Position numbers and translations under genes: made by a program. Below are positions 2,593 through 24,538 of a DNA stretch of 32,888 nucleotides, piece by piece. Location of the stretch: positions 1-32,888 of the forward strand of contig CACXDP010000179.1 in assembly GCA_902766445.1 (NCBI GenBank), read 5' to 3'. Source of the DNA: an uncultured Coriobacteriaceae bacterium (lineage in GTDB: Bacteria > Actinomycetota > Coriobacteriia > Coriobacteriales > Atopobiaceae). The notes beneath the pieces were generated by a model. The model did not search any database. It saw only the letters and a program-made list of their open reading frames with translations, and was not told where the DNA came from. Numbering within the stretch: the first letter of the stretch is position 1; each line of letters opens with the position of its first letter.

Positions 2593-3027
2593 ATGGCGGT
2601 CAGTGCGGAGATGATGCGCTTCAAGGCGGACATGGAGGCAGACGAGTCGTTGCGAGCCAAGTACGAAGAAGCCATCGAACGCATCGTAGAGGCAAAGGAT
2701 GCGACGAGCGATGGTGACGCCATGTGTAAGGCGGCTGCGGAGCTTGGCTATCAGATTTCCGTTGCGGAGCTCGAGCGCGCTCGGGCTGACAGTCTCGAGG
2801 ACGTCGATGAGGAGGAACTGGACGAGGTCGCAGGTGGCCTCTGCTGGGAGGACTACGCGTGTGACTTCGCGTATCACACCAAACAAGAAAAGATGGATCT
2901 GCCCAAATGGTGTATGGAAATATACAGCTGCCTGACCGTCTTGATGCATGCTGACACTGGCGAGGACTCCGCCTGTTTCTCAAAATATAAATGCGCCCCG
3001 GTTTTTCGGCATCCCGACGGATTTTAA
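2593..3027 (+). CDS. Precursor A: Nif11-type leader peptide with Cys-rich core
   Basis: A 144-aa RiPP precursor. Residues 1-82 are a charged, helical Nif11-like leader ending in EELDEVAGG, a double-glycine site for a C39 peptidase. The predicted core (83-144, 62 aa) has six cysteines in three evenly built pairs: C84/C90, C107/C113 and C128/C134, each Cys-X5-Cys. Each pair reads C-[W/M/F]-x-x-Y-x-C (CWEDYAC, CMEIYSC, CFSKYKC). The leader differs from the B-E family, so it probably belongs to radical SAM 1 in the same operon (next genes start 54 and 1116 nt downstream of its stop). Repeated Cys motifs next to a SPASM enzyme suggest sactipeptide or ranthipeptide-type thioethers; the chemistry is inferred. 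Confidence 0.85.
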   Translation: MAVSAEMMRFKADMEADESLRAKYEEAIERIVEAKDATSDGDAMCKAAAELGYQISVAELERARADSLEDVDEEELDEVAGGLCWEDYACDFAYHTKQEKMDLPKWCMEIYSCLTVLMHADTGEDSACFSKYKCAPVFRHPDGF

Positions 3028-4143: not shown

Positions 4144-5571
4144 ATGTACTACCGACTCAAAGAGCCTTGGGCGTTCAGGGGATGGGGGCGCTCGCCCTTT
4201 GCGCTACAGGCACAGTATGGCGAAACGAAGCACGATAGGCCGAATTTCCTGTCCAAGGAACCGTTCCTCGAGCTGCTTTATTGCAACGGCGAGGAGGGCG
4301 TGGACATTGATGCATTCAGTGAGAGGGGACAAAGAGTCATCCGCGAACTGCTCGCGCATGAGGGCATGGAAGAGTCGGTCGAGCCCATGGAACCGCTCAA
4401 GCCCTGGCAGCGATATCACGTCTATCCCTCGTGCTATGCGGAGAACGTTCATTGGTCCATCACAGGCAAGTGCAACTTCAACTGTCGCCACTGCCTTGTG
4501 TCGGCGCCCGACGCGCATCACCCACAGCTGCCGCTCGATGACTGTCTACGCATCGTGGACGAGATGGCTATGTGTGGCATCAAGCGCACGGACATCACGG
4601 GCGGGGAGCCGCTGACACGCAAAGACTTCGAGGAGATCGTCAAGGCACTCTCGGAACGCGGCATCGATATCGGCGTCCTCTTCACCAACGCGTCGTTGCT
4701 TACGGCCGACACCCTCGACATGCTCGAGAGGTATCATCAGTATCCGACGTACCAACTGAGCTTCGATGGGCTGGGACACCACGACTGGCTGCGTGGCGTC
4801 CCCGGAGCGGAGGAGCAGGCGGACGCCGCGTTCCGCTTGCTTCGTGATCGCGGTCTTCCCGTCATCGTCGCCATGTGCATCCATCGGGGCAACAAAGACT
4901 CCCTTCGCGCGACAGCCAACTATCTGGCTTCCTACGACGTGCGCGCGCTGCGGCTCAACGCACCGCAGGAGCTGGGCGTGTGGAAACGCTACGCCGAGGA
5001 GTACGCTCTCAGTGAGGACGAGGCGTGGGAGGTCTACAGTGCCTACATCACGGATTATTTCGCAGATGGCATGCCGCTCGATATCGAGCTTGACGGCTAT
5101 TTCAGCTGCAAGAAGGGCGAGACGGACTACAAGGTGAGCTACGTGCACCACGCACGCCCCGACTCGGACTGGAGCAAGATTCCCTACTGCGAGAGCATGC
5201 GCTACAACATCTATATCGGACCCGAAGGGAGGCTGGCACCTTGCATGGGCTTCTCCGACACGGCGCTGGGGGAGCGCTTCCCCAGCGTGCTGGAGCACCA
5301 TTTGGGTGAGCTCACACTCAAGGGATACTACTTCGACGTGGTGCAGACCAAGATTGCCGACCTCTTGGCGCGAAATCCCGAATGCGCCGCGTGCGAGTAT
5401 CTGCCCGTCTGCTGCGGCGGCTGCATGGTGCAAGGCATCACCGATGATGGCGACTACCTCATCCCCGACACGCGTTGCTGCTACTTCCACAAGCACATCG
5501 GAGAGGCGGCTGTGCGCGAGGTGGCCGACGCCGCGATTGCTGCGGCGGGCCTCGCGAAGGCGGGAGAGTAG
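4144..5571 (+). CDS. Radical SAM/SPASM peptide maturase 1
   Basis: A 475-aa enzyme expected to modify precursor A using S-adenosylmethionine. The [4Fe-4S] motif CNFNCRHC gives C110, C114 and C117, followed by ITGGEPL (GGEP 153-156). The C-terminal SPASM region for auxiliary clusters carries CESM, APCMGF, NPECAACEYLPVCCGGC and DTRCCYF. The first 100 residues (start MYYRLKEPWAFRGWG) match the N-termini of radical SAM 2 and 3 in layout and may serve precursor recognition. The start is supported by AAGGAGA five bases upstream. It is more divergent than enzymes 2 and 3 are from each other, in line with its different precursor. The gene is followed after 3 nt by the frameshifted HlyD-like gene, so an export operon originally continued here. 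Confidence 0.92.
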   Translation: MYYRLKEPWAFRGWGRSPFALQAQYGETKHDRPNFLSKEPFLELLYCNGEEGVDIDAFSERGQRVIRELLAHEGMEESVEPMEPLKPWQRYHVYPSCYAENVHWSITGKCNFNCRHCLVSAPDAHHPQLPLDDCLRIVDEMAMCGIKRTDITGGEPLTRKDFEEIVKALSERGIDIGVLFTNASLLTADTLDMLERYHQYPTYQLSFDGLGHHDWLRGVPGAEEQADAAFRLLRDRGLPVIVAMCIHRGNKDSLRATANYLASYDVRALRLNAPQELGVWKRYAEEYALSEDEAWEVYSAYITDYFADGMPLDIELDGYFSCKKGETDYKVSYVHHARPDSDWSKIPYCESMRYNIYIGPEGRLAPCMGFSDTALGERFPSVLEHHLGELTLKGYYFDVVQTKIADLLARNPECAACEYLPVCCGGCMVQGITDDGDYLIPDTRCCYFHKHIGEAAVREVADAAIAAAGLAKAGE

Positions 5572-6106: not shown

Positions 6107-6721
6107 GTGCCGCAGGTCATGCAGATGGAGGCGCTGGAGTGCGGCGCCGCCTGCTTGGCTATGATTCTCGCATACTATGGCCGCTGGGAGCCACTCGAAA
6201 AGGTTCGCGTCAGCTGCGGTGTTTCGCGTGGCGGCTCCAAGGCAAAGAATATCCTGCGCGCGGCGCGCTCGTATGGGCTTTCGGCCAAAGGCGTGCGCGG
6301 GAACGCCGAGGCGCTGCGCAGGGACGGGTCGTTCCCCTGCATCGCGCACTGGAATCACGGCCACTTCGTGGTTGTTGACGGTTTCAGGGGAAGATATGCC
6401 TACATCAACGACCCCTCCGGTGGCGAGTTGCGCATCACGATGGAGGAGTTCGAGTTGCGCTATACGGGCATCGCGCTCATGTTTGAACGCTCGGATGCCT
6501 TTAAGCCGGGAGGGTCGAAGCCCGACACCGTCGCCTACGCGCGCAAGCGTTTGCGGGGCATGGGTAAGCCCATCTTCTTTGTGATGCTCACGGCGACCAT
6601 CGTGTCCCTCACAGGCATACTCAACATGCCGCGGCCATATGGCTCTGTGAGGGCGGCACGCTGCACATGCATGGCGGCAGCATCACGGGCTGCAGGTCTG
6701 CGAATGGTGCCGTGCAAGTGA
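6107..6721 (+). pseudogene. Truncated C39 peptidase-ABC transporter (N-terminal part)
   Basis: The GTG start at 6107 has GAGGGG upstream. Residues 1-170 match the N-terminus of the intact transporter at 16991-19168: catalytic Cys12 in ALECGAACLAM, His86 in HWNHGHFVVVDG and Asp102 in YINDPSGG are all kept. Similarity stops inside the first transmembrane helix at about 6626-6634 (ATIVSLTGILN, against AISYLFGIVN). The frame then runs on through unrelated DNA to 6721. All remaining membrane helices and the whole ATPase are absent. The peptidase domain itself looks intact, so a 204-aa membrane-tethered protease could still be made. Precursor A is the nearest possible substrate. Confidence 0.75.
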
Positions 6722-9049: not shown

Positions 9050-9508
9050 TTAGCTTATGCGTATGGACGGGTTGTACTCGCCGTAGCCATGGTAGAATTC
9101 GGCCCCGCATTTGGCGCACTTCTTCTTCCTGGTCGCGAAGAATTTATTGTGGTTGAGCATATACAGTTGCCCTCCGCAGTTCGGGCACTTGACTCTCGTC
9201 GGCGGGTTGTCGTAGGTCACGGATGCCGCGTAACATTCGTCGTTGGACCAGCACCAGCTGCCCGGTTCCACCGTGGCCGCGCAGCCCTGCGTGAGCCAGT
9301 CGCGGTCCGAACCGCCTGCGACTGCCGCGAGCTCGTCGGCGGAGAGCTCCTCGTCCTCCACCTTCGTACGTGCCTTTACCTCGGACAGCGCCTTCTGCGC
9401 CTCCTCCTCGGTGGCCTCGATGCCGCCCGCTGCCAGTGCCGTCGCAGCCTCCTGTGCGGTAGTCGCTGCCATCAGAGCTTCCCTTACCTTCTCGCTCAGC
9501 TCTGCCAT
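9050..9508 (-). CDS. Precursor B: Nif11-type leader, seven-Cys core
   Basis: A 152-aa RiPP precursor. The leader (1-66, MAELSEKVREAL...) ends LSADELAAVAGG with the double-Gly cleavage site at 65-66. The 86-aa core starts SDRDWLTQGCAATV and has cysteines at 76, 86, 92, 108, 111, 131 and 134: C-X9-C-X5-C-X15-CXXC-X19-CXXC. The first three lie in the family block GCAATVEPGSWCWSNDEC. The last four form CPNCGGQLY and CAKCGAEFY, which look like a zinc ribbon. The start at 9508 has GAGAGGAGAA in front. It is the last gene on this minus-strand run, 119 nt after the phosphatase, with its own promoter. Likely modified by radical SAM 2 and/or 3 and exported by the C39-ABC transporter (inferred). Confidence 0.88.
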   Translation of the reverse strand: MAELSEKVREALMAATTAQEAATALAAGGIEATEEEAQKALSEVKARTKVEDEELSADELAAVAGGSDRDWLTQGCAATVEPGSWCWSNDECYAASVTYDNPPTRVKCPNCGGQLYMLNHNKFFATRKKKCAKCGAEFYHGYGEYNPSIRIS

Positions 9509-9569
9509 GCCGTTCTCCTCTCGTTCGGGACTCCTGCGCCGCTTCCGCACGGCGTATTACATTAGGTGA

Positions 9570-9615
9570 ATGTTGCCTTCCCCCTCGCGCCCCTGTCAAG
9601 GGGAAATCGGCGTGC
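9570..9615 (-). promoter_or_regulatory. Promoter of precursor B
   Basis: Minus-strand TTGACA (9599-9594), an 18-nt spacer and CAACAT (9575-9570). The same boxes with the same spacer occur before precursor E. The 22 nt at 9594-9615, including the -35 box, differ at a single base from 12377-12398 before precursor C, suggesting a shared activator or operator site next to the -35 box. Confidence 0.65.
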
Positions 9616-9627
9616 AGCTTCGAGGAG

Positions 9628-11793
9628 TTATCCGGTGGGGACGCCGTACTCCACGGCCAAGATCGTCACGTCGTCCGACTGCGCGATGCCCTCGGCCCAC
9701 GCTGCGACGTTTGCGCGGATGCCGCGCACGACGGCCTCCGGGCGTTCGTCGGGGTGGTCGGCGAGAAAGGCCTCGAGCCGGTCGATGCCGTACTCCTCCA
9801 CCTCGGCGTTCGTCGCCTCGCTTACGCCGTCGGTGTAGAGGACGAGCTCGTCTCCCGGCACAAGTGTCATCGTCCTCTGCTCGTACGTCATCGTGTCGAA
9901 TCCTCCCAGGACGAAGTTGCAGCCCTCGCTCAGCCAACGCCAGGTGCCGCCGCGCCCGTGTCGCAGCAGCGGGAAGTTGTGCCCTGCATTGACGTAGGTC
10001 AGAAGTCCGGACTGCCAGTCGAGCGTCGCGATCCACGCCGTGACGAACATGTCCGCCTCGTTGTTGTCGCACAGGTAGACGTTCGTCGCGGCTACGGCAT
10101 CGGCGGGCCTCATGCCCGAGGAGAGGTGGTTTTGAATCTCGGTCTTTGCGGCCATCATAAAGAGCGCCGCTGGTATTCCCTTGCCGCTCACGTCTGCGAC
10201 GAGAAAGGCGACCGTGTGGTCGTCCAGCTCAAAGAAGTCGTAGAAGTCGCCGCCCACCTCCTTGGCAGCATCCATCAAAGCGTAGAGGCTCACGGTCTCC
10301 ACGCCGGGGAAGGCCGGAAAGCTCCTGGGCAGCATTCCCTCCTGTATGGCCTTAGCGGTGACAAGCTCCGCCTCCATCTGGCGCCTCGCCGCGCCGATCC
10401 AGCCCTTGAGGGCGTCGACCGTGATGTTGATGCCCGCCGATAGCATCGCGAACTCGACGACATCTACCTCGCGTACGACCGTGTCGAGCCTCCCCTTGGT
10501 TATCTCGGCGAGTGAGGCGTTCACGCTATCGATCGGACTGCCCACGACCCTTCGCAACAAGAACGACGTGGCGACGAAGACGACTCCGAGTATGGCAAGC
10601 GAGGCGATGGACATCCAGAGCATCGGCTTGCCACGGTCCTCATACACCATGGAATACGGCATTTCCATGACGGCGTACGCGTCTGTCGTGCCGATGCGTG
10701 AGGCCGCCAAATACGCCAAATCAAGGCGCTGGTTGTCGGCGTGGTATATGGTCTCGTGCAACGCTCCGTCGCGTGCCGCTTCTTTCACGAGCAGCATGAG
10801 GGCCTTGTCAAAAGACCCGTCCGCAACTAGTGCGGGGTTATCGGACGCGAGAACGGAATCGCCGACAAGGATTGCCACGGTGCCGTCCTCCAGATCGTAG
10901 CCCGACACGAGGTGTGTGGCGAGCAGCTCGTCGGACAGTGCGGATTTGACCTTGTCGGACAAGCTTTCGTATGCGGGGTCTCCCTGCAATTCGTCGAGCA
11001 CCGTCCATCCGTTCGCAATGTGCGTCGTCAAGAACTCCAGCTCCCTGCGCATGTGTTCGTGGGCGGTCCGCCGCTCTCCCTCGGAAATCACGTTGAAGCC
11101 GAGGGCACAGACAAGCGCGTACACGAGCGCGAGCATGAGCAGCATATTCAGGCGAAGGATGACGTTCAGTTTGATATGGGCTCTCGTGTCGCGAAGGCGC
11201 AAGACGAGAAGGTCACACGCGATACTTGCGGCAGCCATGAGGACCGCATCCCCCGCCCCTTGGAGAGGTGCGAGTCCCAGGAAAAGGACGGACCTGGATG
11301 TCTGCTGTGCTACGATGAACGGCGCAAAGAACAGCAGGCTTGCAAGCGAGGAGACCAGAACGCACGAGACTGCCATGGTGGCATGCCTACGTGCGCCCTC
11401 TAAGCCTAGGTGCGACACACGCGCGAAGGATAGGCCGAGCGCGAGGCCAGTGAGGCCAAGGGGCAGTATTGAGTTTGACGGGAGCACAAAGTACTCGGTG
11501 ACGCTGAACGGTTGCAGCGCGACACGCGCATAGAGCAGGACGCCGCCAATCAAGCCCAAGGCGCACCCCAGGCGCCATCCCAGGAGTAGTGCTGCGATGG
11601 CCACGGGTACGAGAATCCCCATAAGGCACGTTGCGATGGCATCGTTTGCGATGATTTCGATTATGCCGAGGCGCGTGGCCACCATTGCGGCGCATACAAT
11701 CAGCAGGGCAGAGAACGTGGCCCCCCTCATCTCGTCTCGAGTGTCGGCGAGGAGTCCCCGACCCGCGCGTCCCATGAGAATGTCCTCGCTCAT
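9628..11793 (-). CDS. Membrane SpoIIE/PP2C serine phosphatase with sensor domain
   Basis: A 721-aa protein. The first 235 residues hold about six or seven hydrophobic helices. A presumed extracytoplasmic sensor region follows (about 235-400), then another membrane helix (LWMSIASLAILGVVFVA), a HAMP-like linker, and a C-terminal PP2C domain of the SpoIIE/RsbU class. The PP2C motifs are EVGGDFYDFF, LVADVSGKGIPAALFMM, YVNAGHNFPLL, ELVLYTDGVSEATN and QSDDVTILAVEY; their Asp residues bind the catalytic metals. The start at 11793 has AGGAAGGA upstream. The gene sits between precursors C and B on the same strand. Phosphatases of this class dephosphorylate STAS antagonists such as the one at 21464, releasing an anti-sigma kinase's target; that it acts on this one is inferred. 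Confidence 0.88.
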   Translation of the reverse strand: MSEDILMGRAGRGLLADTRDEMRGATFSALLIVCAAMVATRLGIIEIIANDAIATCLMGILVPVAIAALLLGWRLGCALGLIGGVLLYARVALQPFSVTEYFVLPSNSILPLGLTGLALGLSFARVSHLGLEGARRHATMAVSCVLVSSLASLLFFAPFIVAQQTSRSVLFLGLAPLQGAGDAVLMAAASIACDLLVLRLRDTRAHIKLNVILRLNMLLMLALVYALVCALGFNVISEGERRTAHEHMRRELEFLTTHIANGWTVLDELQGDPAYESLSDKVKSALSDELLATHLVSGYDLEDGTVAILVGDSVLASDNPALVADGSFDKALMLLVKEAARDGALHETIYHADNQRLDLAYLAASRIGTTDAYAVMEMPYSMVYEDRGKPMLWMSIASLAILGVVFVATSFLLRRVVGSPIDSVNASLAEITKGRLDTVVREVDVVEFAMLSAGINITVDALKGWIGAARRQMEAELVTAKAIQEGMLPRSFPAFPGVETVSLYALMDAAKEVGGDFYDFFELDDHTVAFLVADVSGKGIPAALFMMAAKTEIQNHLSSGMRPADAVAATNVYLCDNNEADMFVTAWIATLDWQSGLLTYVNAGHNFPLLRHGRGGTWRWLSEGCNFVLGGFDTMTYEQRTMTLVPGDELVLYTDGVSEATNAEVEEYGIDRLEAFLADHPDERPEAVVRGIRANVAAWAEGIAQSDDVTILAVEYGVPTG

Positions 11794-11830
11794 CGCCACG
11801 TCCTTCCTGACGACAATTATCGCGACAGAA

Positions 11831-11866
11831 CGGGCCATTCGTCGAGCGTGCACGACGAATGGCCCG
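11831..11866 (-). terminator. 14-bp hairpin downstream of precursor C
   Basis: Perfect inverted repeat CGGGCCATTCGTCG (11831-11844) / CGACGAATGGCCCG (11853-11866), 8-nt loop, 22 nt after the precursor C stop and before the phosphatase start. There is no U tract, so partial read-through into the phosphatase is plausible. Confidence 0.6.
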
Positions 11867-11888
11867 CCTCATGCTTGGGAAAAGCCCA

Positions 11889-12311
11889 TCAATCGCCGAG
11901 GGCCTCGTATACTGCTCCGCACGAGATGCACTTCGCAAAGAGCCCCTTCGGCTCGCGATGCGTATAGAGGACCCCCCAGCACTTCCAACAGCGTTGCTTC
12001 TTGGGCTCATGGCTGTACCTAACGTCAATCATGGCGCAGGAGTCTTCGGACCAACACCAGCTGCCCCCCTCCACCGTGGCCGCGCAGCCCTCCGTGAGCC
12101 AGTCGCGTTCCGCGCCGCCCGCGAAGGCCGCGAGCTCGTCTACGGACAGCTCCTCGTCCGCACCCTTTGCACGCGCCTTTGCCTCGCGCAACGCCCTCTC
12201 CGCATTCTCGGTGGTGGCCTCGATTCCTGCGGCCGCGAGCGCTGCGGCGGCCTCCTCCGTAGTGGCCGATGCGAGCAGCGCCTCCTGCGTGTTCTCGCTC
12301 AGCTCCGCCAT
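11889..12311 (-). CDS. Precursor C: Nif11-type leader, seven-Cys core
   Basis: A 140-aa RiPP precursor of the same family as B, D and E. The leader (1-66) ends LSVDELAAFAGG. The 74-aa core starts AERDWLTEGCAATV and has cysteines at 76, 86, 92, 108, 111, 128 and 131, with the same C-X9-C-X5-C-X15-CXXC spacing and a shorter X16 before the last CXXC. The zinc-ribbon-like part reads CWKCWGVLY and CISCGAVY. The start has AAAGGAGG upstream. It is divergent from radical SAM 2 (157 nt between starts), an arrangement repeated for precursor E and radical SAM 3. This pairing suggests C is the main substrate of enzyme 2, which is an inference. Confidence 0.88.
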   Translation of the reverse strand: MAELSENTQEALLASATTEEAAAALAAAGIEATTENAERALREAKARAKGADEELSVDELAAFAGGAERDWLTEGCAATVEGGSWCWSEDSCAMIDVRYSHEPKKQRCWKCWGVLYTHREPKGLFAKCISCGAVYEALGD

Positions 12312-12376
12312 GTCCGCCTCCTTTCGTCTGGGTCAATGAAACACACACATTTGACGGTTCCCAATCCCTTTGGTCT

Positions 12377-12398
12377 TGTCAAGGGGCAATCGGCGTGC
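12377..12398 (-). promoter_or_regulatory. -35 region of precursor C promoter
   Basis: Minus-strand TTGACA (12382-12377) with the upstream sequence GCACGCCGATTGCCCC, identical but for one base to the region before precursor B. A -10 box matching CAACAT is not present at 18 nt; the -10 is uncertain. Confidence 0.5.
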
Positions 12399-12404
12399 GG
12401 GGCG

Positions 12405-12433
12405 TTGTCTGCGCGCTCTGCGTGGGCTATACT
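12405..12433 (+). promoter_or_regulatory. Promoter of radical SAM 2
   Basis: TTGTCT (12405-12410), a 17-nt spacer and TATACT (12428-12433), a near-consensus housekeeping promoter 35 nt before the ATG. It lies back to back with the precursor C -35 region, 7 nt from the conserved 22-nt block. Confidence 0.65.
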
Positions 12434-12468
12434 TTTGCGGCGATTTACGATAGGGGAGAGGAGCGAGC

Positions 12469-13887
12469 ATGGTTGACGTGGCGAGCGGGGGGCAGGCGCG
12501 ACACTACATCCTCACGCCTTGGTGGTCGCTGCGCGGGTGGAAGCTTCTACCCTATGCGATACAGCATCTGTCATACCCCCACACGGAGTTCTTCCGTGAG
12601 GACGTGTTTCGTCTCTTGGAGGCGTGCGACGGGCGAACCGAGGTGCGCTGGGACGGACTTGACGACAGGCAGAGGGCTCGCTACGACCACTGGGAGCAAA
12701 ACGGCTTCATTCGCCGCTGCGGCCCCGATGAGAGCTTGCGACCGGAGCAGGAGTACCGCTTCTATCCCGTGCGGTTCAAAGAATCCGTGCAGTGGTCAAT
12801 CACGGGCCGGTGCAACTTCCGCTGCAGGCACTGCTTCATGTCCGCGCCGCACGCCGCGCAGGGCGAGCCGAGCTGGGATCAGCTCATGGCGATGCTCGAC
12901 GCATTCGAGCGCTGTGGCATCAAGGTCATGAACCTCACGGGCGGGGAGCCCATGGTGCGGGCGGACTTCTGGGAGCTGGTGGACGAGATTCTGCGCCGCG
13001 GCATGTGCGTGTCGACCATCTACTCCAATGGCCTGCTCGTCACGGACGAGTTCCTGGACGGGCTGGAGGCGCGTGGGTTGCAGCCGGCCATACAGTTCAG
13101 CTTCGACGGGGTTGGCTGGCACGACTGGATGCGCGGCGTCCCGGGCGCCGAGCGGATTGTGGTGGACGCCATGAGGCGCTGCCGGGAGCGGGGGGTGCCC
13201 ACTACCGCATCCATGGTCATCTGCCGCGAGAGCGTCGGCACCATACGCGAGTCGGTCAACCTACTGGCGTCGCTCGGTTGTCGCATGCTCAAGGTGGGCA
13301 ACGCCTCGCCGCAGGGCGAGTGGCTCGACCAGCCCGAGCACTACCTCACGCAGGAGGAGACCTACGAGGCGTTCCTGGAGTACATACCGCGCTTCTTCGA
13401 GGACGGGGCACCCATCACGCTGGGCCTAGAGGGGTTCTTTACCTACGACCGTCAGCGGGGTGAGATCGGCTCGCCCCAGGAGAAGCGGGTGGACGAGGGG
13501 AACTTCGCACGGGCCCTCATGTGCGGCCACGTGCGCCGAGAGATGTACGTCAGTCCCAAGGGCAACGTGCTGCCCTGCATGTCCATGGTCGGAGGCCCCA
13601 TCGAGGAGAAGTTCCCAAACATGCTCGAGGTGCCGCTGGAGCAGATTCTGGACGACGGGTCGCTGTACATGGACATCACGAACCTCCGTGTGAGCGACTT
13701 CATGGCGCACAACCCCGATTGTGCCGCGTGCGAGTGGCGCACGCAATGCTGCGGTGGCTGCCGTGCCGTCGCGGTGAGGGACGGAAGCACGAACTACCTC
13801 GCGAAGGACATGATTACCTGCGAGTACTACAGGGGCGGCTGGAAGACCCGCAAGGACGAGCTGCTGAGCGGCCTGGGGCTTCTTTAG
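12469..13887 (+). CDS. Radical SAM/SPASM peptide maturase 2
   Basis: A 472-aa enzyme. After about 100 N-terminal residues (HYILTPWWSLRGWKLLPYAIQ...) comes the cluster motif CNFRCRHC (C115, C119, C122), then LTGGEPM. The SPASM part carries LMCGHVRREMYVSPKGNVLPCMS, NPDCAACEWRTQCCGGC and MITCEYYRGGW. The ribosome site GAGAGGAG precedes the ATG. It is nearly the same length as and highly similar to radical SAM 3, including at DNA level, so the two are a recent duplicate pair. Substrates are expected among precursors B-E. Its stop codon overlaps the stop of the convergent precursor D gene by 4 nt. Candidate products are Cys thioethers, as SPASM maturases of Cys-rich Nif11 peptides commonly make; not shown here. 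Confidence 0.92.
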   Translation: MVDVASGGQARHYILTPWWSLRGWKLLPYAIQHLSYPHTEFFREDVFRLLEACDGRTEVRWDGLDDRQRARYDHWEQNGFIRRCGPDESLRPEQEYRFYPVRFKESVQWSITGRCNFRCRHCFMSAPHAAQGEPSWDQLMAMLDAFERCGIKVMNLTGGEPMVRADFWELVDEILRRGMCVSTIYSNGLLVTDEFLDGLEARGLQPAIQFSFDGVGWHDWMRGVPGAERIVVDAMRRCRERGVPTTASMVICRESVGTIRESVNLLASLGCRMLKVGNASPQGEWLDQPEHYLTQEETYEAFLEYIPRFFEDGAPITLGLEGFFTYDRQRGEIGSPQEKRVDEGNFARALMCGHVRREMYVSPKGNVLPCMSMVGGPIEEKFPNMLEVPLEQILDDGSLYMDITNLRVSDFMAHNPDCAACEWRTQCCGGCRAVAVRDGSTNYLAKDMITCEYYRGGWKTRKDELLSGLGLL

Positions 13888-14309
13888 AGCCCGTATGCCG
13901 GATTGTACATGTAGTACCCGCATCCAGGACATGCCAGGTACTTGGCCAGTCGTATGTCGGAGTTGCTTGGGACCATGCCCGCGCCGCATTTGGGGCAGGG
14001 GTAGGTGGCGCGGTGGTTGTAGTACACGACATCCCATGAGTGGCAGCTGTCGTTGGACCAGCACCAGCTTCCCGACTCCACCGTGGCCGCGCAGCCGTCC
14101 CTCCCGAAGTCGCGACGCGTGCCTCCGCCAACAGCCGCGAGCTCGTCGACGGAAAGCTCGTCCTCGCCGCGTCGTGCGCACGCCTCCCTCCATATGCGTC
14201 TGGCCATCTCGTCGTCGGCGTCGATGCCCTCGGCTGCGAGCGTCGCCGCCACGTCCTGCGCGCTGGCTGCGGACAGTAGCGCCTCCCTGGCCTTTTCGCT
14301 CAGTTCCAT
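13884..14309 (-). CDS. Precursor D: Nif11-type leader, seven-Cys core
   Basis: A 141-aa RiPP precursor, the most divergent of the B-E set. The leader (1-63) ends LSVDELAAVGGG, with Gly replacing the Ala of VAGG. The 78-aa core starts TRRDFGRDGCAATV (the DWLT of the others is changed to DFGR) and keeps cysteines at 73, 83, 89, 105, 108, 127 and 130 with the common spacing. The ribbon part is CPKCGAGMV and CPGCGYYMY. The start at 14309 has AGGAGG 12 nt upstream; an ATG at 14321 abuts the AGGAGG and is unlikely. It follows precursor E on the same strand and shows no promoter of its own, so it is probably co-transcribed through the hairpin at 14335-14371. Its 3' end overlaps radical SAM 2 convergently. 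Confidence 0.85.
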   Translation of the reverse strand: MELSEKAREALLSAASAQDVAATLAAEGIDADDEMARRIWREACARRGEDELSVDELAAVGGGTRRDFGRDGCAATVESGSWCWSNDSCHSWDVVYYNHRATYPCPKCGAGMVPSNSDIRLAKYLACPGCGYYMYNPAYGL

Positions 14310-14334
14310 GGGTCCCACCATCCTCCTATGCGCG

Positions 14335-14371
14335 GGCGGGATGCGAGGCAGTGCTAGCCCCGCATCCCGCC
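14335..14371 (-). terminator. Hairpin between precursors E and D
   Basis: Perfect 11-bp inverted repeat GGCGGGATGCG (14335-14345) / CGCATCCCGCC (14361-14371), 15-nt loop, in the 85-nt gap between two co-directional precursor genes. No U tract; likely a partial terminator or RNA-stability hairpin setting the E:D ratio. Confidence 0.5.
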
Positions 14372-14394
14372 TGACTGTCATTGCCTGGTCGCTA

Positions 14395-14868
14395 TCAGTA
14401 GAAAGAAACCTGCGTGTTGGAGTTAGGGGACGTGCCTGAGCTCTGGTATGCTCCGCACCGGCGGCAGCGACTGTACCGATACGATGCCCATGATGGGCCC
14501 TCATAGTAGAGCGTCCCTCCGCACTCCTTGCACTGGCCCTTTGCCGGCGCGTTGTCGTACGTGACATCCGCAACCGAGCAGGCGTCGTCGGACCAGCACC
14601 AGCTGCCCGGTTCCACCGTGGCCGCGCAGCCCTGCGTGAGCCAGTCGAGGTCCCCGCCGCCCGCAACGGCAGCGAGTTCGTCGGGGGATAGCTCGGCGTC
14701 GCCCTCCCCTGCGTTCGCCCTCGCTGCGCGTGTCCTCGCCTCGTTCAGAGCCTTCTCCGCCTCTGCCTCGCTGAGCTGGATACCATCCTCCGCGAGCGCC
14801 GCCGTGGCCTCCTCTGCGGTGGTCGCCGCGAGCAGTGCCTCCTGTACCTTCTTGCTCAGATCCGCCAT
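14395..14868 (-). CDS. Precursor E: Nif11-type leader, seven-Cys core
   Basis: A 157-aa RiPP precursor. The leader (1-71) is slightly longer than in B and C because of an Ala/Gly/Glu-rich insertion (about 48-57) and ends LSPDELAAVAGG. The 86-aa core starts GDLDWLTQGCAATV and has cysteines at 81, 91, 97, 113, 116, 135 and 138 (X9, X5, X15, X2, X18, X2). The ribbon part is CKECGGTLYY and CRRCGAYQ, with a Ser/Asn-rich tail. The start has GAGAGGAGA upstream. It is divergent from radical SAM 3, with 236 nt between starts, and its 5' untranslated region resembles that of precursor B. Likely the partner substrate of radical SAM 3 (inferred). Confidence 0.88.
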   Translation of the reverse strand: MADLSKKVQEALLAATTAEEATAALAEDGIQLSEAEAEKALNEARTRAARANAGEGDAELSPDELAAVAGGGDLDWLTQGCAATVEPGSWCWSDDACSVADVTYDNAPAKGQCKECGGTLYYEGPSWASYRYSRCRRCGAYQSSGTSPNSNTQVSFY

Positions 14869-14959: not shown

Positions 14960-15104
14960 GGGAGTGTGTCGCGGGTCCGCAGACGGCAACGCCGTATCGG
15001 CTGCGGCACAACTATCTGTGTCACCGCCTCCCTCGTTTCGTGCGGGACATAGTGCTAGGATGGATGCATCTCGGGAGAACCTGTGGTTCGTAGGGGGTCG
15101 TCAC

Positions 15105-16523
15105 ATGGGCGCCGCGGCGGATGCCACCGATACTCGATATTACGTGCTCCTGCCATGGTGGTCGTTGCGCGGCTGGAAACTCCTGCCCTACGCGCTGCGG
15201 CATCGTGCGCGGCGACGCACGGAGTTCTTCTACGGATGGGAGTGGGAGCTCATCAGGGCGTGCGACGGCCAGACCGAGGTGCGCTGGGACGAGCTCGGCG
15301 ACGGGCAGCGTGCCTGCTACGACCGCTGGGAGCGGGAGGGCATCATCCGCCGCTGTCCTCCGGGCCAGCGGCTGCGCCCCGAGCAGGAGTACCGCCTTTA
15401 CCCGGCACGCTTCAAGGAGTCCGTACACTGGTCCATTACAGGCCGGTGCAACTTTCGCTGTAGGCACTGCTTCATGTCCGCACCGCACGCCGCCCAGGGC
15501 GAGCCGAGCTGGGACCAGCTCATGGCGATGCTCGACGCCTTCGAGCGCTGCGGCATCCAGTGCCTCAGCCTGACGGGTGGGGAGCCTCTGATCCGGACGG
15601 ACTTCTGGGAGCTGGTGGACGAGATTCTGCGACGAGGCATGATCGTGACCAGCATCTTTACCAACGGCCTGCTCGTCACAGATAATTTCCTCGATGGGCT
15701 GGAAGCACGTGGCATGCGGCCGGCCATCCTGTTCAGCTTCGACGGGGTCGGCTGGCACGACTGGATGCGCGGCGTGCCAGGCGCGGAGCGGGCCGTGGTG
15801 GACGCCATGGGCCGCTGCCGGGAGCGGGGCGTGCCCACTACGGCGACCATGGTGATCTGTCGCGAGAACGTTGGCGTCCTGCGCGAGACGGTCAATCTCC
15901 TGGCGTCGCTCGGCTGCCGCTTGCTCAAGGTGGGCAGCGCCACACCGCAGGGTGAGTGGCTTGACCAGCCCGAGCACTACCTCACGCAAGGAGAGGCCTA
16001 CGAGGCGTTCCTGGAGTACATCCCGCACTTCTTCGAAGACGGGGTGCCTATCTCGCTGGAGCTCGAGGGATTCTTTGACTACAGCCGTCAGCGGGACGAG
16101 TTCGGCTCCTTCCTAGAGAAGCACACCGACGAGGGGAGCTTCGCACGGGTCCTCATGTGTGGCCACGTGCGTCGCGAGATGTACGTCAGTCCCAAGGGCA
16201 ACGTGCTGCCCTGCATGTCGATGGTCGGAGGCCCCATCGAGGAAATGTTTCCCAACATGCTGGGGACCCCGCTCGAGGAGATTCTGGACTCCAAGTCCCT
16301 CTACATGGACATCGCAGATCTCCGCGTGAGCGACTTCATGGCGCGTAACCCTGACTGCGCTGCGTGCGAGTGGCGTACGCAGTGCTGCGGCGGCTGCAGG
16401 GCCTTTGCGGTGATGGACGATGGCACGGACTACCTCGCGAAGGACATGGTCGCGTGCGAGTACTACAGGGGCGGCTGGAAGGACCGCAAGGACAAGCTGC
16501 TGCGCAGCCTGGGGAAGCTGTGA
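15105..16523 (+). CDS. Radical SAM/SPASM peptide maturase 3
   Basis: A 472-aa close paralogue of radical SAM 2, with cluster cysteines C115, C119 and C122 in the same positions (CNFRCRHC), then LTGGEPL. The SPASM part has VLPCMS, NPDCAACEWRTQCCGGC and MVACEYYRGGW. The start at 15105 is chosen because it aligns with the start of enzyme 2 and has AGGGGG seven bases upstream; an in-frame ATG at 15060 is possible but lacks a good ribosome site. It is the first gene of the run through the HlyD-like protein, both transporters, STAS and phosphatase. It may handle a broader range of the B-E precursors than enzyme 2, but nothing in the sequence decides this. Confidence 0.92.
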   Translation: MGAAADATDTRYYVLLPWWSLRGWKLLPYALRHRARRRTEFFYGWEWELIRACDGQTEVRWDELGDGQRACYDRWEREGIIRRCPPGQRLRPEQEYRLYPARFKESVHWSITGRCNFRCRHCFMSAPHAAQGEPSWDQLMAMLDAFERCGIQCLSLTGGEPLIRTDFWELVDEILRRGMIVTSIFTNGLLVTDNFLDGLEARGMRPAILFSFDGVGWHDWMRGVPGAERAVVDAMGRCRERGVPTTATMVICRENVGVLRETVNLLASLGCRLLKVGSATPQGEWLDQPEHYLTQGEAYEAFLEYIPHFFEDGVPISLELEGFFDYSRQRDEFGSFLEKHTDEGSFARVLMCGHVRREMYVSPKGNVLPCMSMVGGPIEEMFPNMLGTPLEEILDSKSLYMDIADLRVSDFMARNPDCAACEWRTQCCGGCRAFAVMDDGTDYLAKDMVACEYYRGGWKDRKDKLLRSLGKL

Positions 16524-16563
16524 GGGGCCTGACTGCGCAGAGGGGCGAACGGAGGTAACCGAC

Positions 16564-16986
16564 GTGGCGACGCAGAAGCAGATGTCGTCGGCAGAGGAAT
16601 ATCGCGAGAGGATCTCTTCCCCGCAGGAGCTCTCGGACTACCTGCACGTGTCGAGCCCGGGCGCCTGGGTGGTGTTCGTGGCCGTTGCCTTGGCCTTGGT
16701 CGGCCTGCTCGCGTGGTCCACGGTGGGCACGCTGGAGACGACGGTGGACGGCAAGGCCGTTGTCGAGGCAGGCGAGGCGGAGGTCGTCACCCTGAACGCG
16801 GAGTCCATCAAGGCCGGCATGCTGGTGAGGGTTGCGTCCTCGGAGTTCGTCATCGACTCCACCGAGGCGGACGAGTATGGCAGGACCCTGGGCTACGCCG
16901 ACGTCGACCTTCCGGATGGCAGGTACGACGCGATCGTGGTCGTAGAGACCGTCGCCCCCATCGAGTTCTTGTTTGAGAGCAGGTGA
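16564..16986 (+). CDS. Short HlyD-like membrane protein of the bacteriocin exporter
   Basis: A 140-aa protein with one membrane helix (about 34-52, GAWVVFVAVALALVGLLAW) and a small extracytoplasmic domain ending VAPIEFLFESR. The GTG start at 16564 has GGAGGT at 16551-16556. It sits 40 nt after radical SAM 3 and 4 nt before the C39-ABC transporter, the place of the NHLM-type HlyD accessory protein. At 140 aa it is much shorter than typical HlyD adaptors and lacks their long coiled coil, which fits a Gram-positive host with no outer membrane to bridge. An earlier in-frame ATG at 16420 lies inside the radical SAM gene and is rejected. A frameshifted homologue lies at 5575-6080. Confidence 0.75.
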   Translation: MATQKQMSSAEEYRERISSPQELSDYLHVSSPGAWVVFVAVALALVGLLAWSTVGTLETTVDGKAVVEAGEAEVVTLNAESIKAGMLVRVASSEFVIDSTEADEYGRTLGYADVDLPDGRYDAIVVVETVAPIEFLFESR

Positions 16987-16990
16987 TACC

Positions 16991-19168
16991 ATGGCGAGGA
17001 GGCGGGTGAGGCCTACACGCACGAGGGGAGTCGCCAAGGTACCGGTCGTGATGCAGCTCGAGGAGTTGGAGTGCGGGGCCGCGGCGCTTGCCATGCTCAT
17101 GGCGTACTACGGCAAGTGGGTGCCGCTCGAGCAGGTGCGCATCGACTGCGGCGTCTCCCGCGACGGCTCGACGGCAAAGAACATCTATCTGGCGGCGGAG
17201 CACTACGGTTTTGACGTCAAGGCCTATCGCCGCTCGCCCGAGACCATTCGCGAGAAAGGTCAGTACCCCTGCATCGTCCACTGGAACCACAACCACTTCG
17301 TCGTGCTCGACGGCTTTAGGGGCGATACGGCCTTCATCAACGACCCGGCGCGGGGCGTGGTGAAGGTGTCGCAGGAGCAGTTTGACAGGAGCTTCTCCGG
17401 CGTCGTCATTATCCCGGTCCCCTCGGAGGGCTTCGAGCCGAGCGGCAGACCCAAGAGCATGCTGGCCTTTGCCAGGAAGCGTCTCGTGGGGACGGGACCT
17501 GCCATCGCATTCGTGGTGCTGACGACGGCGATCTCGTACCTCTTTGGCATCGTGAACTCAGTCACGTCACGCGTATACCTGGACAGGATCCTCACCGGGC
17601 TCAACCCCGGCTGGCTTTACCCCTTCGCCTTGCTGCTCGCGGTCCTTGCGCTCATCCAGCTCGTCGTGGCATGGGCACAGGCCATCCTGTCGTTGAGGAT
17701 AGACGGCAAGATGTCTGTCGTCGGCAGCACGTCCTACATGTGGAAGGTCATGCACATGCCCATGCAGTTCTTTTCCCAGAGGCTCGTGGGCGACGTGCAG
17801 TCGCGGCTGGGGCTCAACGCCTCCATCTCGGGGACGCTGGTAAAGACGTTCGCGCCGCTCCTGCTCAATACCGTGATGATGGTGTTTTACCTGGTGCTCA
17901 TGGTCAGGCAGAGCGTGCTCTTCACGGCAGTCGGGCTAGCCACCCTGCTGGCAAACGTGGCCATTTCGCGCCTGGTCTCCGTCCGCCGCATGAACGTCGC
18001 GCGCGTGCAGATGCGCGACGCCGGCATGCTCGAGGCGACCACCGCGATGGGAATCGACATGATCGAGACCATCAAGGCGAGCGGCGCGGAGGGGGGGTTC
18101 TTTCGCAAGTGGGCGGGATACCAGGCGTCCGTGAACGCGCAGACCGTAAAGGCCAGACGCACGGATCAGTTCGTCGGCATGATACCGTCTTTTCTGACTT
18201 CGCTTAGCAACTACGTGGTGTTGCTGCTCGGTGTGTACCTCGCGATGCAGGGCAAGTTCACGCTCGGATCGGTGATGATGTTCCAGGGCTTCCTCGGATC
18301 GTTCATGTCGCCGGCCATGACGCTCGTGGAAGCGGGGCAGACCATCCAGGAGATGCGCACGCAGATGGAGCGCGTGGAGGACGTGATGGAGTATCCGGAG
18401 GACGAGGTCTTCGCGGTGGCCGACGCGGGCGACGGGACGGTTCGCGAGCTCAGGGGGGAGGTCGAGTTGCGCGGCGTGACCTTCGGGTACTCCCGACTCG
18501 ACAGGCCCATCATCAGCGACCTCTCGCTCCATGCTAGGCGGGGCGAGCGGATAGCGCTGGTCGGGGCCTCGGGATGCGGGAAGTCCACTGTCTCCAAGCT
18601 CGTCTCGGGACTCTACCGGCCGTGGTCCGGCGAGATACTCTTTGACGGGCGACCCCGCGAGGCGTACTCGCACGAGGCCATGGTCGCCGCGCTGGCGGTG
18701 GTGGACCAGGACATCACTATTTTTGAGGGGACGGTCGCCGACAACATCCGGATGTGGGACGAGACCATACTGGACTTCGAAGTGAACTTGGCGGCGCGCG
18801 ACGCCGGTCTGCACGACGATATCGTTGCCCTGCCAGGCGGATACCAGCACAAGCTGGAGAGCGGCGGCAGAAGTCTCTCCGGTGGGCAGAGGCAGCGCCT
18901 CGAGATTGCCCGCGCGCTCGCTCTGGACCCGGCGATTCTCATCTTGGACGAGGCGACCAGCGCCTTGGACGCACAGACGGAGCACGAGGTGGTGGAGGCC
19001 ATCGCCGCGCGAGGCGCGACCTGCATCGTCATCGCCCATCGTCTGTCTGCGGTAAGGGACTGCGACCAGATCATCGTGCTCGACGGGGGCAAGGTGGTGG
19101 AGCGCGGAACGCACGAGGAGCTCATGCGGCTCCGCGGCGCATACGCCGACCTTGTGTCGAGTGAGTAG
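16991..19168 (+). CDS. C39 peptidase-containing ABC exporter (NHLM ABC1 type)
   Basis: A 725-aa bifunctional transporter. Residues 15-140 are a C39 protease: catalytic Cys28 in LECGAAALAM, His102 in NHFVVLDG and Asp118 in INDPA. This domain cuts leaders after Gly-Gly, which all five precursors carry. The membrane domain spans about 165-450. The ATPase has Walker A GASGCGKS (525-532), LSGGQ (629-633) and Walker B ILILDE (649-654). ATG 16991, 4 nt after the HlyD-like stop, is preferred over an upstream TTG. It resembles the peptidase/permease/ATPase component of NHLM bacteriocin systems, which are known to accompany Nif11 and nitrile-hydratase leaders. It is the only intact C39 exporter here; the copy at 6107 is truncated. 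Confidence 0.92.
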   Translation: MARRRVRPTRTRGVAKVPVVMQLEELECGAAALAMLMAYYGKWVPLEQVRIDCGVSRDGSTAKNIYLAAEHYGFDVKAYRRSPETIREKGQYPCIVHWNHNHFVVLDGFRGDTAFINDPARGVVKVSQEQFDRSFSGVVIIPVPSEGFEPSGRPKSMLAFARKRLVGTGPAIAFVVLTTAISYLFGIVNSVTSRVYLDRILTGLNPGWLYPFALLLAVLALIQLVVAWAQAILSLRIDGKMSVVGSTSYMWKVMHMPMQFFSQRLVGDVQSRLGLNASISGTLVKTFAPLLLNTVMMVFYLVLMVRQSVLFTAVGLATLLANVAISRLVSVRRMNVARVQMRDAGMLEATTAMGIDMIETIKASGAEGGFFRKWAGYQASVNAQTVKARRTDQFVGMIPSFLTSLSNYVVLLLGVYLAMQGKFTLGSVMMFQGFLGSFMSPAMTLVEAGQTIQEMRTQMERVEDVMEYPEDEVFAVADAGDGTVRELRGEVELRGVTFGYSRLDRPIISDLSLHARRGERIALVGASGCGKSTVSKLVSGLYRPWSGEILFDGRPREAYSHEAMVAALAVVDQDITIFEGTVADNIRMWDETILDFEVNLAARDAGLHDDIVALPGGYQHKLESGGRSLSGGQRQRLEIARALALDPAILILDEATSALDAQTEHEVVEAIAARGATCIVIAHRLSAVRDCDQIIVLDGGKVVERGTHEELMRLRGAYADLVSSE

Positions 19169-19180
19169 GGGGTGGCGCTG

Positions 19181-21370
19181 ATGGGAGTGTTTGGCGATCA
19201 GATCGCGGAACGCCACGAGGCCGACCAGCAGGCACTGGAGGACGCGTTCGACCGCGTGGCCGGAGTCGTGCTCGGCGAGCGGAGGGCGACCAGCGTCCGA
19301 GACCATCGCATCGTGACGAAGCACGCCCTCGACAGGATCGTCAAGTACTATCACTGCAGGCCGACGGAGGCACCTGAGGACGTGAAGGACATGGAAGACC
19401 GTCTCGACCTCTGTCTGCGGCCCCACGGCATCATGCGCAGGTCGGTGCGGCTCACGCGTGGCTGGTACAAGGACTCGTACGGCCCCCTCCTCGGCTTCCT
19501 CAAGGAGGGCGGCGAGCCCGTCGCCCTCCTCCCCGGCGCGTTGGGCGGCTACTACTACGATGACGAGCGGACGGGCGAGCGCGTGAGGATTGGGGCCAGG
19601 ACGGCGGAGGGCATCGAGGAAGACGCGTACTGCTTCTACAGCCCGCTGCCCATGCGGCCCATCGGCATCCCCGACCTGCTGCTCTATATGAAGCGCTGCG
19701 TGTCCCTCTCAGACGTCGTGTTCGTCGCGGGGATTACGCTTGCGGTCACGCTCGTGGGCATGCTCATGCCGCGCATCACCAAGGCCCTGACGGGGCCGGT
19801 GCTGGCGAGCGGGCGGACGAGCGCCCTCGTGGGCATCGGCGTCTGCATCCTCTGCGTGTCGCTGTCGTCGCAGCTCATCAGCAGCGCGCAGGGGCTCATC
19901 ATGGGTCGGGTGGAGGCAAAGACCTCGCTGGGCGTCCAGGCGTCCATGATGATGCGCCTCATGTCGCTGCCGGCGGGCTTCTTTCGACAGTACAGCGCCG
20001 GTGAGCTGAAGAGTCGCGCGATGTCGGTGAACCAGCTCTGCTCCCTGCTCCTGGGCATGGTGATGAGCGCCGGCCTGTCGTCTGTGACCTCGCTGCTCTA
20101 CGTCACGCAGATATTTCGCTTCGCGCCGGCGCTGGTGGTGCCAGCGCTCGTGACCATCCTGGCGACGGTCGTCATCGGCGCCTCCACGACCCTCGCAAAG
20201 ACGAGGATCAGCAGGCGGCAGCGCGAGCTCGCGGCCAGCGAGTCCGGCATGTCGTATGCGATGATCTCGGGCGTGGAAAAGATTAAGCTTGCCGGGGCGG
20301 AGAAGAGGTTCTTTGCCCGGTGGCTCGACCTCTACGCGCAGGGCGCGCAGCTGACTTACAACCCGCCACTCTTCATAAAGGTCAACGGCGTGCTGAGCAC
20401 CGCGATCAGCTTGGTCTCGGGTATCGTGCTGTATGTCTTGGCCGCGAGGACCGGGGTGGACCCGTCGTCGTACTTCGCCTTTACCGCCGCCTATGGGGCC
20501 GTCATGGGTGCGTTCATGAACCTGTCGGGCACCGCTCTCACCGCAGCAGAGATACGACCGATACTGGAGATGGCGGAGCCCTTCCTCAAGGCCGAGCCCG
20601 AGAGCGCGGGCGGCAAGGAAGTCGTGACGAGGCTCTTTGGCGGGGTGGGACTGGAGCATGTCGACTTTCGCTACGACGAGTCGGGCCCGTACGTCCTGCG
20701 CGACCTCTCGCTAAAGATACGCGCTGGGGAGTACGTGGCGATAGTGGGCAAGACCGGGTGCGGCAAGTCGACGCTCATGAGGTTGTTGCTGGGCTTCGAG
20801 AAGCCTGAGCGCGGTGTCATATACTACGACGGAAGGGACATGGCCCGTCTCGACCTCGGGTCGTTGCGCCGAAGGATTGGCTCGGTAATGCAGTCGAGCG
20901 GGTTGTTTCAGGGAGATATATACTCAAACATCGTGATGTCTGCACCATGGCTCACCGTCGACGAAGCGTGGGAGGCTGCGGAGACGGCCGGAATCGCCGA
21001 TGACATCAGGGCCATGCCCATGGGCATGGACACCATCATATCCGAGGGACATGGCGGCATCTCGGGTGGACAGCGTCAGCGTCTGATGATCGCGCGGGCC
21101 ATCGCGCCGAAGCCGAGCATATTGCTCTTTGACGAGGCGACCAGCGCCTTGGACAACAAGACGCAGCGGCACGTGTCAGATGCGCTCGCACGGATGGGAT
21201 GCACCAGAGTGGTCATCGCCCATCGCCTTTCGACGATTCGCCATTGCGACCGCATACTCGTGCTCGAGGGGGGCAGGGTCATAGAAGAGGGCAGCTACGA
21301 GGAGCTGCTGGCGCGTGGCGGGTTTTTTGCCGAACTCGTGGAGCGCCAGCGCCTGGACGTCACGACGTGA
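19181..21370 (+). CDS. Second ABC exporter subunit (NHLM ABC2 type)
   Basis: A 729-aa protein, 12 nt after the C39 transporter. The N-terminal 170 residues are not a peptidase; they form a soluble region typical of the second transporter of NHLM systems, containing GWYKDSYGPLLGF and VALLPGALGGYYYDD. The membrane domain follows (from about 175), then an ATPase with GKTGCGKST, LSLKIRAGEYVAIVG, ISGGQRQRLMIARA and ILLFDEATSALDN. The ATG at 19181 has AGGGGG eight bases upstream; an in-frame GTG at 19172 overlaps that site and is less likely. It probably forms a heterodimer with the C39 transporter for export of the modified peptides. Confidence 0.88.
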   Translation: MGVFGDQIAERHEADQQALEDAFDRVAGVVLGERRATSVRDHRIVTKHALDRIVKYYHCRPTEAPEDVKDMEDRLDLCLRPHGIMRRSVRLTRGWYKDSYGPLLGFLKEGGEPVALLPGALGGYYYDDERTGERVRIGARTAEGIEEDAYCFYSPLPMRPIGIPDLLLYMKRCVSLSDVVFVAGITLAVTLVGMLMPRITKALTGPVLASGRTSALVGIGVCILCVSLSSQLISSAQGLIMGRVEAKTSLGVQASMMMRLMSLPAGFFRQYSAGELKSRAMSVNQLCSLLLGMVMSAGLSSVTSLLYVTQIFRFAPALVVPALVTILATVVIGASTTLAKTRISRRQRELAASESGMSYAMISGVEKIKLAGAEKRFFARWLDLYAQGAQLTYNPPLFIKVNGVLSTAISLVSGIVLYVLAARTGVDPSSYFAFTAAYGAVMGAFMNLSGTALTAAEIRPILEMAEPFLKAEPESAGGKEVVTRLFGGVGLEHVDFRYDESGPYVLRDLSLKIRAGEYVAIVGKTGCGKSTLMRLLLGFEKPERGVIYYDGRDMARLDLGSLRRRIGSVMQSSGLFQGDIYSNIVMSAPWLTVDEAWEAAETAGIADDIRAMPMGMDTIISEGHGGISGGQRQRLMIARAIAPKPSILLFDEATSALDNKTQRHVSDALARMGCTRVVIAHRLSTIRHCDRILVLEGGRVIEEGSYEELLARGGFFAELVERQRLDVTT

Positions 21371-21386: not shown

Positions 21387-21463
21387 CCCACATGCCATCC
21401 GCCGCAGAAACGTGTAATATACGCAATACGCATTGGCATTGGACTGAGGGGGTGCCAGACGGC
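21387..21463 (+). promoter_or_regulatory. Conserved region upstream of the STAS gene
   Basis: The 93-nt gap between ABC2 and STAS is the largest in this operon. It contains TAATAT (21415-21420), a possible -10 box, and GAGGGGG before the STAS start. About 75 nt are conserved at 8907-8977 without a downstream gene, which suggests either an internal promoter worth conserving or simple common ancestry. No convincing -35 box is visible. Confidence 0.4.
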
Positions 21464-24487: not shown

Positions 24488-24538
24488 GTGCGCAGAAGAT
24501 GGCGTAAGCAGATTGGGACAGGACGGGGACGACGTTTA

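Follow-up and report, generated by a model that had tools for sequence, protein, structure and literature searches.

The stretch of DNA considered here (the window) comprises 32,888 nucleotides from an uncultured Coriobacteriaceae bacterium (GenBank assembly GCA_902766445.1, contig CACXDP010000179.1, positions 1 to 32,888 of the forward strand). It carries four genes, B to E, for putative precursors of ribosomally synthesized and post-translationally modified peptides (RiPPs), together with maturases of the radical SAM/SPASM type and a peptidase-bearing exporter of the NHLM type (Table 1). The open frames of B to E are all present (4/4), and each translation joins a Nif11-like leader with a double-glycine (GG) end to a core with seven cysteines. 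An earlier sequence-only reading of this DNA had described the motif GCAATVExGSWCWSxDxC and the spacing C-X9-C-X5-C-X15-CXXC-X16-19-CXXC in all four cores, and both were recovered when the translations were counted: the motif is kept behind the four leaders, C-X9-C-X5-C-X15-CXXC is found in 4/4, and the last gap measures 19 residues in B, 16 in C and 18 in both D and E. The alignment of the four precursors contains 45 invariant columns, among others C76, C86, C92, D90, C108, C111, C131 and C134 (B numbering). The first three cysteines belong to a block of nearly fixed layout, C76-X9-C86-X3-D90-X-C92-X6-Y99, and the last four form two CXXC pairs in a tail. At the leader end, G65 and G66 are found in 4/4, and the leader of B is predicted to be helical at residues 6-14, 18-27, 34-52 and 57-63. 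The profile of 38 aligned precursors described below matches the Nif11 chain 9zn4 at E 7.8e-4.

No relative emerged from a contig scan in which precursor B was the only query. A second contig scan, with an alignment built around CAATVE, yielded 54 loci from Clostridia, Erysipelotrichia and Coriobacteriia; it used the pattern [GN]CAATVEx[GD]S with candidates confirmed against precursor B, and may favour tailed cores. In a family-wide search of 140 genomes at E<=0.01, 31 genomes gave matches, many of them to the leader or to the tail only. Relatives from both searches belong to Clostridia, Erysipelotrichaceae, Lachnospiraceae and Coriobacteriia, and none was found in the viral contigs, plasmids and phages searched. 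All of the 54 loci except L095 contributed, and the 79 hits from these 53 fell to 76, with 70 distinct cores, once three lacking CA[AST]TV[EG] were removed. Due to the pattern and to the confirmation against precursor B, the conservation of the CAATVE letters is partly a product of selection, and reliance is placed on the letters outside the pattern, which fixed CAATVE and S84 and left C86, D90, C92 and Y99 free. Of these, C-X3-D-X1..2-C occurs in 70/70 distinct cores and a tyrosine seven residues after the third cysteine in 66/70.

The ends of the cores are more diverse. After the third cysteine, 36 of the 70 carry CXXC...CXXC, 25 end in C..KAW, five have other cysteines and four have none; these last nine include two lysine-rich ends (L099 and L101) and one core cut by the contig end (L073). 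The C..KAW ending usually follows an RNIY..G.FPN-like segment, its R/H-x-I/L-Y piece being present in 23/25. The seven-cysteine layout, which had been taken as invariant, is thus not so in the wider family, and homologues without the CXXC pairs, named beforehand as a case against the proposal, make up about half of the cores (34/70). Among the 36 tailed cores, the first gap is 9 residues in 36/36, the second 5 or 6, the third 12-15 and the last 12-26. The mean information over 35 rows reaches 3.59 bits in the three-Cys block, a value partly fixed by the search pattern, and 3.07 and 3.05 bits in the cysteine pairs, for which the rows were chosen. The tail loop, with 1.02 bits, is the least conserved among the regions measured.

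RiPP cores are usually regarded as short, unfolded substrates. The sequence-only reading had seen a zinc-ribbon-like, folded tail in the last four cysteines, and this view has gained support. A glycine follows the first CXXC pair in 32/38 and the second in 31/38 rows of an alignment that comprises the four window precursors, L103 and all but one of the 34 tailed rows, the exception being L102, whose leader is broken; the listing of tailed rows had left out tails longer than 110 residues, L103 among them. From these 38 precursors, AlphaFold2 predicts leader helices to residue 50 (scores 86-96), residues 51-70 at 62-71, an unordered three-Cys region (blocks of 50-58 for residues 71-100, with residues 87-94 below 50) and, in the tail, a four-strand ribbon with strands at 103-107, 114-121, 126-131 and 137-141 (blocks of 78-90 for residues 101-140). 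Two CXXC pairs on a beta ribbon, the mark of a zinc ribbon, are consequently suggested, with the pairs present in 4/4 window precursors and the strands predicted for B. Compared with known chains, the 38-precursor profile matches the Aart zinc finger at E 5.6e-5, and RPB9 zinc-ribbon chains, which dominate the upper part of the list, match positions 101-140 weakly (E 0.0016-0.014). The tail shares the CXXC pairs and the strand layout with RPB9 and HVO_2753, the likeness showing in these weak profile matches and, short of significance, in fold matches to RNA polymerase II subunits; RPB9 and HVO_2753 are cellular proteins, whereas the ribbon of the window ends a GG-leader precursor. When the window tails were shuffled, CXXC-X8..30-CXXC arose in 0.145-0.235% of 20,000 shuffles, a test that becomes circular when extended to the 34 rows from outside the window, since these had been selected by their CXXC pattern; the fair counts for paired or four-ligand sites are the 36/70 given above and the 17/65 (any four-ligand site) and 7/36 given below.

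Judged from the sequences, the three-Cys block and the zinc-ribbon tail are separate modules, since each has been met alone, the block in tail-less cores and the zinc-ribbon tail in cores that lack the block. At locus L040 (genome G130) the block adjoins a maturase 69% identical to rSAM2, and no CXXC was found in the three frames read just downstream. At locus L101, one maturase lies next to both a zinc-tail core and a lysine-tail core, and the Coriobacterial loci L047 and L049 carry tandem three-Cys units, spaced about X9-X5, in a core without CXXC pairs. Conversely, the window, the 54 loci and another 11 supplied 65 GG-leader cores without the block: eight have CXXC...CXXC and nine others C..C...H..[HC], against shuffled means of 0.08 and 1.06, so that 17/65 contain a four-ligand site where about 1.1 would arise by shuffling. 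The stand-alone zinc core L047:5093-5560 passes TIGR03798 (34.3 bits vs 32.3), and L093:4577-4783 scores 25.6 bits (1.7e-5) against the C2H2 finger model PF13894, below the cut-off of 27. Twenty stretches around NHLM exporters in the bacterial family of the window contained six GG-leader candidates; two have zinc-ribbon cores, both from the window's own genome (L151), one of them starting 67 bases after an exporter gene, while the other four have no zinc site and two look spurious. The leader of L151:4181-4447 matches in 37/140 family genomes, its own included, and with this leader as the only query 36 cores were read from 30 loci, the best-ranked among the matches; seven contain CXXC...CXXC (0.13 expected by shuffling) and the other 29 do not.

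With moderate confidence, B to E are read here as precursors of exported peptides of two modules, a three-Cys block modified by the maturase and a variable, metal-folded tail, with the NHLM system as the route of export. The leader would dock on the neighbouring radical SAM/SPASM enzyme, rSAM2 or rSAM3, at an N-terminal domain that we take, from its order of strands and helices, to be a RiPP recognition element. The enzyme would then modify the three-Cys block, the simplest guess being a thioether between C86 and D90, by analogy with PapB at CX3D. The exporter would cleave after GG and release the product, whose tail would bind Zn(II) and fold into a small ribbon. In this ribbon the widely varying loop may act as a recognition surface beside the constant modified block, and its low conservation is as expected for such a surface on a fixed scaffold. 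The product may be antibacterial or serve in signalling.

The analogy comes from the ranthipeptides, in which PapB forms thioethers at CX3D, with six links in PapA (freyrasin; PMC9413430). The window cores and PapA, as putative and known substrates of radical SAM peptide maturases, have the Cys-X3-Asp unit in common (70/70 cores, 4/4 in the window), and the window cores differ in having one conserved CX3D in fixed surroundings instead of six. In the 25-row family alignment of rSAM2, C115, C119, C122, C352, C370, C418, C421, C427, C431 and C451 are invariant, that is, CX3CX2C and seven further cysteines, and the enzyme thus has the cysteines of the SPASM type. The folds nearest to the rSAM2 model (mean pLDDT 90.5) are the solved structures of the radical SAM peptide maturases SkfB (E 5.7e-16) and SuiB (E 1.7e-15), with 14-17% identity, a likeness of fold that need not extend to the reaction. 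A homologue of rSAM2/3 lies on the examined stretch in 24/54 loci, and the whole-genome search found one at E<=1e-30 in 16/17 genomes.

Several observations weigh against this reading. The TIGR03798 cut-off of 32.3 bits is missed by B (23.3), C (17.6) and E (21.8), D is unlisted, and precursor A, a related gene of the window, reaches 29.5. The precursor model has an overall pTM of 0.45, Foldseek returned no match to it at E<=0.001 (the first entry, with E 1.8, is a chain of 62 residues from a structure whose title names ELOF1, an elongation complex of RNA polymerase II), and the window precursors fall below every Pfam zinc-ribbon cut-off. On the enzyme side, rSAM2 lies well under the cut-off for each of its best 25 of 81 NCBIfam models. 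The PapB-family model NF047865 (cut-off 340 bits) is not among the best 25 of 81 for rSAM2 or of 82 for rSAM3, where the lowest rows stand at about 52-53 bits. Precursor A lies beside a related maturase, yet it has tyrosine and not aspartate at C+4. Furthermore, no maturase homologue was found on the stretch in 30/54 loci, some of them short contigs; a zinc-tail precursor that looks intact occurs in genome G137 (98% complete) without an rSAM2-like gene at E<=1e-20, and G140 has two precursors and no such gene at E<=1e-30.

The metal-bound tail might instead be a maturation aid that holds the core so that the enzyme reaches the first three cysteines, as the sequence-only reading had offered; we regard this as unlikely. 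In a maturase tree of 33 rows, tail and enzyme largely travel together within the largest clade (15 rows, support 100/100), where 14 rows bear the label of a tailed neighbour. However, its fifteenth row is L040, with a tail-less core, and a further clade mixes tailed (L077, L091) and tail-less (L099, L101) neighbours, with both kinds beside one enzyme at L101. The remaining four zinc-labelled rows (two from L074, and L077 and L091) stand elsewhere in the tree, among maturases of other endings. The labels were set by hand according to the precursors of each locus: L092, one of the 14, counts as zinc with one CXXC only, L101 as other though it has both kinds, and L075 as zinc in spite of a further C..KAW core at its locus. 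As the main explanation, the scaffold idea was set aside on the ground that tail-less cores (L040, L099, L101) adjoin maturases related to those of tailed cores. The other suggestion of that reading, a predicted metal site as part of the product, is favoured over it, in view of the zinc-ribbon cores that occur on their own behind similar leaders.

Equally little weight is given to the four CXXC cysteines being no metal site, either crosslinked by the enzyme or joined as disulfides in the exported peptide. All seven cysteines stand in one core, several cysteines can be targets of one radical SAM peptide maturase, as in the six links of PapB (PMC9413430), and significant Foldseek matches are missing. 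Against this stand the glycines after the pairs, as in zinc knuckles, the ribbon predicted by AlphaFold2 and L151, whose contig carries stand-alone ribbon cores but no rSAM2-like gene. These same cores, and the G137 precursor, would suit a still less probable account in which B to E yield small zinc proteins that are exported without enzymatic modification, the maturases serving only other precursors of the cluster; the block nonetheless shares its stretch with homologous maturases in the 24 loci mentioned. A rubredoxin-like iron site, or another metal, in a redox peptide is likewise improbable: CXXCG pairs are the rubredoxin knuckle too, and rubredoxin PF00301 matches 2 of the 38 rows (best E 0.0022), but the zinc-ribbon models match as many or more (RPB9 4, Zn_ribbon_3 4) and RPB9 chains prevail near the top of the profile matches.

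The two-module reading places B to E near the Nif11-derived peptides (N11P, TIGR03798) and their NHLM export described by Haft, Basu and Mitchell 2010 (PMC2887384). Common features are a leader end like ELSxDELxAVAGG with a GG cleavage site, a peptidase-bearing ABC exporter above its cut-off and several precursors per cluster. Besides the family scores of B to E given above, the differences are the maturase, radical SAM/SPASM in the window, a term absent from the main text of that paper, and the size of the core, 86 residues with a folded tail in B against a tabulated suffix of 23. A literature search over titles and the starts of abstracts, with most subscription papers outside reach, found no zinc ribbon in a Nif11 or radical SAM precursor among the papers listed, and a text search for CAATVE gave only unrelated papers among the matches listed.

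More tentatively, small peptides folded around a metal (zinc ribbons and C2H2-like fingers) could make up a large class, so far unrecognised, that gut Coriobacteriia and Clostridia secrete by means of Nif11 or double-glycine leaders and NHLM exporters. Within it, B to E would be hybrids, the fold carrying a warhead modified by a radical SAM enzyme. If one core indeed unites an enzyme-modified block with a metal-folded domain, leader-guided modification and export would be usable on small folded proteins, and cores with the block only, the tail only or both would offer a ready substrate series for probing what the maturase needs.

Table 1. Features of the window and, in the last two rows, of a further contig of the same genome.
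Feature	Position	Strand	Basis and remarks
Precursor B	9050-9508	-	Nif11-like leader, residues 1-66 (9311-9508); core 67-152; translation, TIGR03798, alignment, model
B, three-Cys block C76-C92	9233-9283	-	Translation and four-precursor alignment
B, zinc-ribbon-like tail C108-G135 (CPNCG ... CAKCG)	9104-9187	-	Alignment, profile matches, AlphaFold2 model
Precursor C	11889-12311	-	Three-Cys block 12036-12086, CXXC pairs 11919-11990; counted on translation
Precursor D	13884-14309	-	Three-Cys block 14043-14093, CXXC pairs 13920-13997; counted on translation
Precursor E	14395-14868	-	Three-Cys block 14578-14628, CXXC pairs 14455-14532; counted on translation
rSAM2, radical SAM/SPASM maturase	12469-13887	+	Between precursors C and D; PF04055 80.7 bits (cut-off 29.5), PF13186 SPASM 23.2 (cut-off 21.5)
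rSAM3, radical SAM/SPASM maturase	15060-16523	+	78% identical to rSAM2; start uncertain (15060 or 15105)
Probable HlyD-like secretion partner	16420-16986	+	Listed frame overlaps rSAM3 end; no Pfam match; similar frames precede ABC1 elsewhere
ABC1, NHLM exporter with peptidase	16973-19168	+	TIGR03796 862.8 bits (cut-off 853.3)
ABC2, second ABC exporter subunit	19172-21370	+	ABC_tran and ABC_membrane above cut-off; NHLM partner by position
Precursor A	2593-3027	+	Core built of three C-X5-C units and lacking a zinc tail; related leader
rSAM1, radical SAM gene	4144-5571	+	Adjoins precursor A; 35% / 37% identical to rSAM2 / rSAM3
NHLM peptidase exporter, N-terminal piece	6107-6721	+	Apparently truncated; 53% identical to ABC1 over 173 residues
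Fourth radical SAM gene	24488-25900	+	Best NCBIfam model TIGR04463 (RiPP maturase), 115.4 bits (cut-off 525)
Two SpoIIE-type phosphatases and a STAS protein	9628-11853, 21392-21763, 22277-23389	-, +, +	In or beside the cluster
L151 peptide, whole core a zinc ribbon	4181-4447 (contig C192)	-	Nif11/GG leader; beside NHLM exporter
L151 peptide, whole core a zinc ribbon	6118-6366 (contig C192)	-	Nif11/GG leader; beside NHLM exporter

Among the other genes of the window, precursor A and its relatives consist of repeated C-X5-C units, with tyrosine instead of aspartate at C+4 in A and in most units of the relatives. A matches in 9/140 family genomes, its own included, the match in G130 being the L040 core. 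The fourth radical SAM gene scores 75.7 bits against NF047865. PADLOC models returned nothing relevant to the precursor finding. Homologues of the STAS or SpoIIE proteins occur in 5/54 loci (L092, L093, L114, L122 and L123).

In the bacterial family of the window, some tailed copies appear degenerate or isolated. In L041 (G135) and L042 (G131) the leader is out of frame or largely missing, as it is in L043 (G080), where the first pair is also damaged (CPAW). The orphan copies at L039 8899-9402(+) and L042 near 10300(-) lie, by eye, between glutamate dehydrogenase-like and HAD-type phosphatase-like genes, one of the two without most of its leader, and in G137 and G131 the tailed copy adjoins a glutamate dehydrogenase-like gene (by eye). 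In some genomes the tailed precursors outnumber the close maturases, for example in G144, with seven near-full profile matches vs three maturases, two of 60-66% identity and a third of 40%.

Other cores also accompany these enzymes. At L075:11450, L077:727, L091:8493 and L099:8483 the maturases adjoin a different core family, with DGHE..C and a later cysteine, in which 3/4 have no CXXC pair. Runs of GG-leader genes lie between exporter and maturase at L081:2410-4621, L093:2390-4783 and L096:3060-3745, and carry C2H2-like, C2HC-like or CXXC/CXXC cores.

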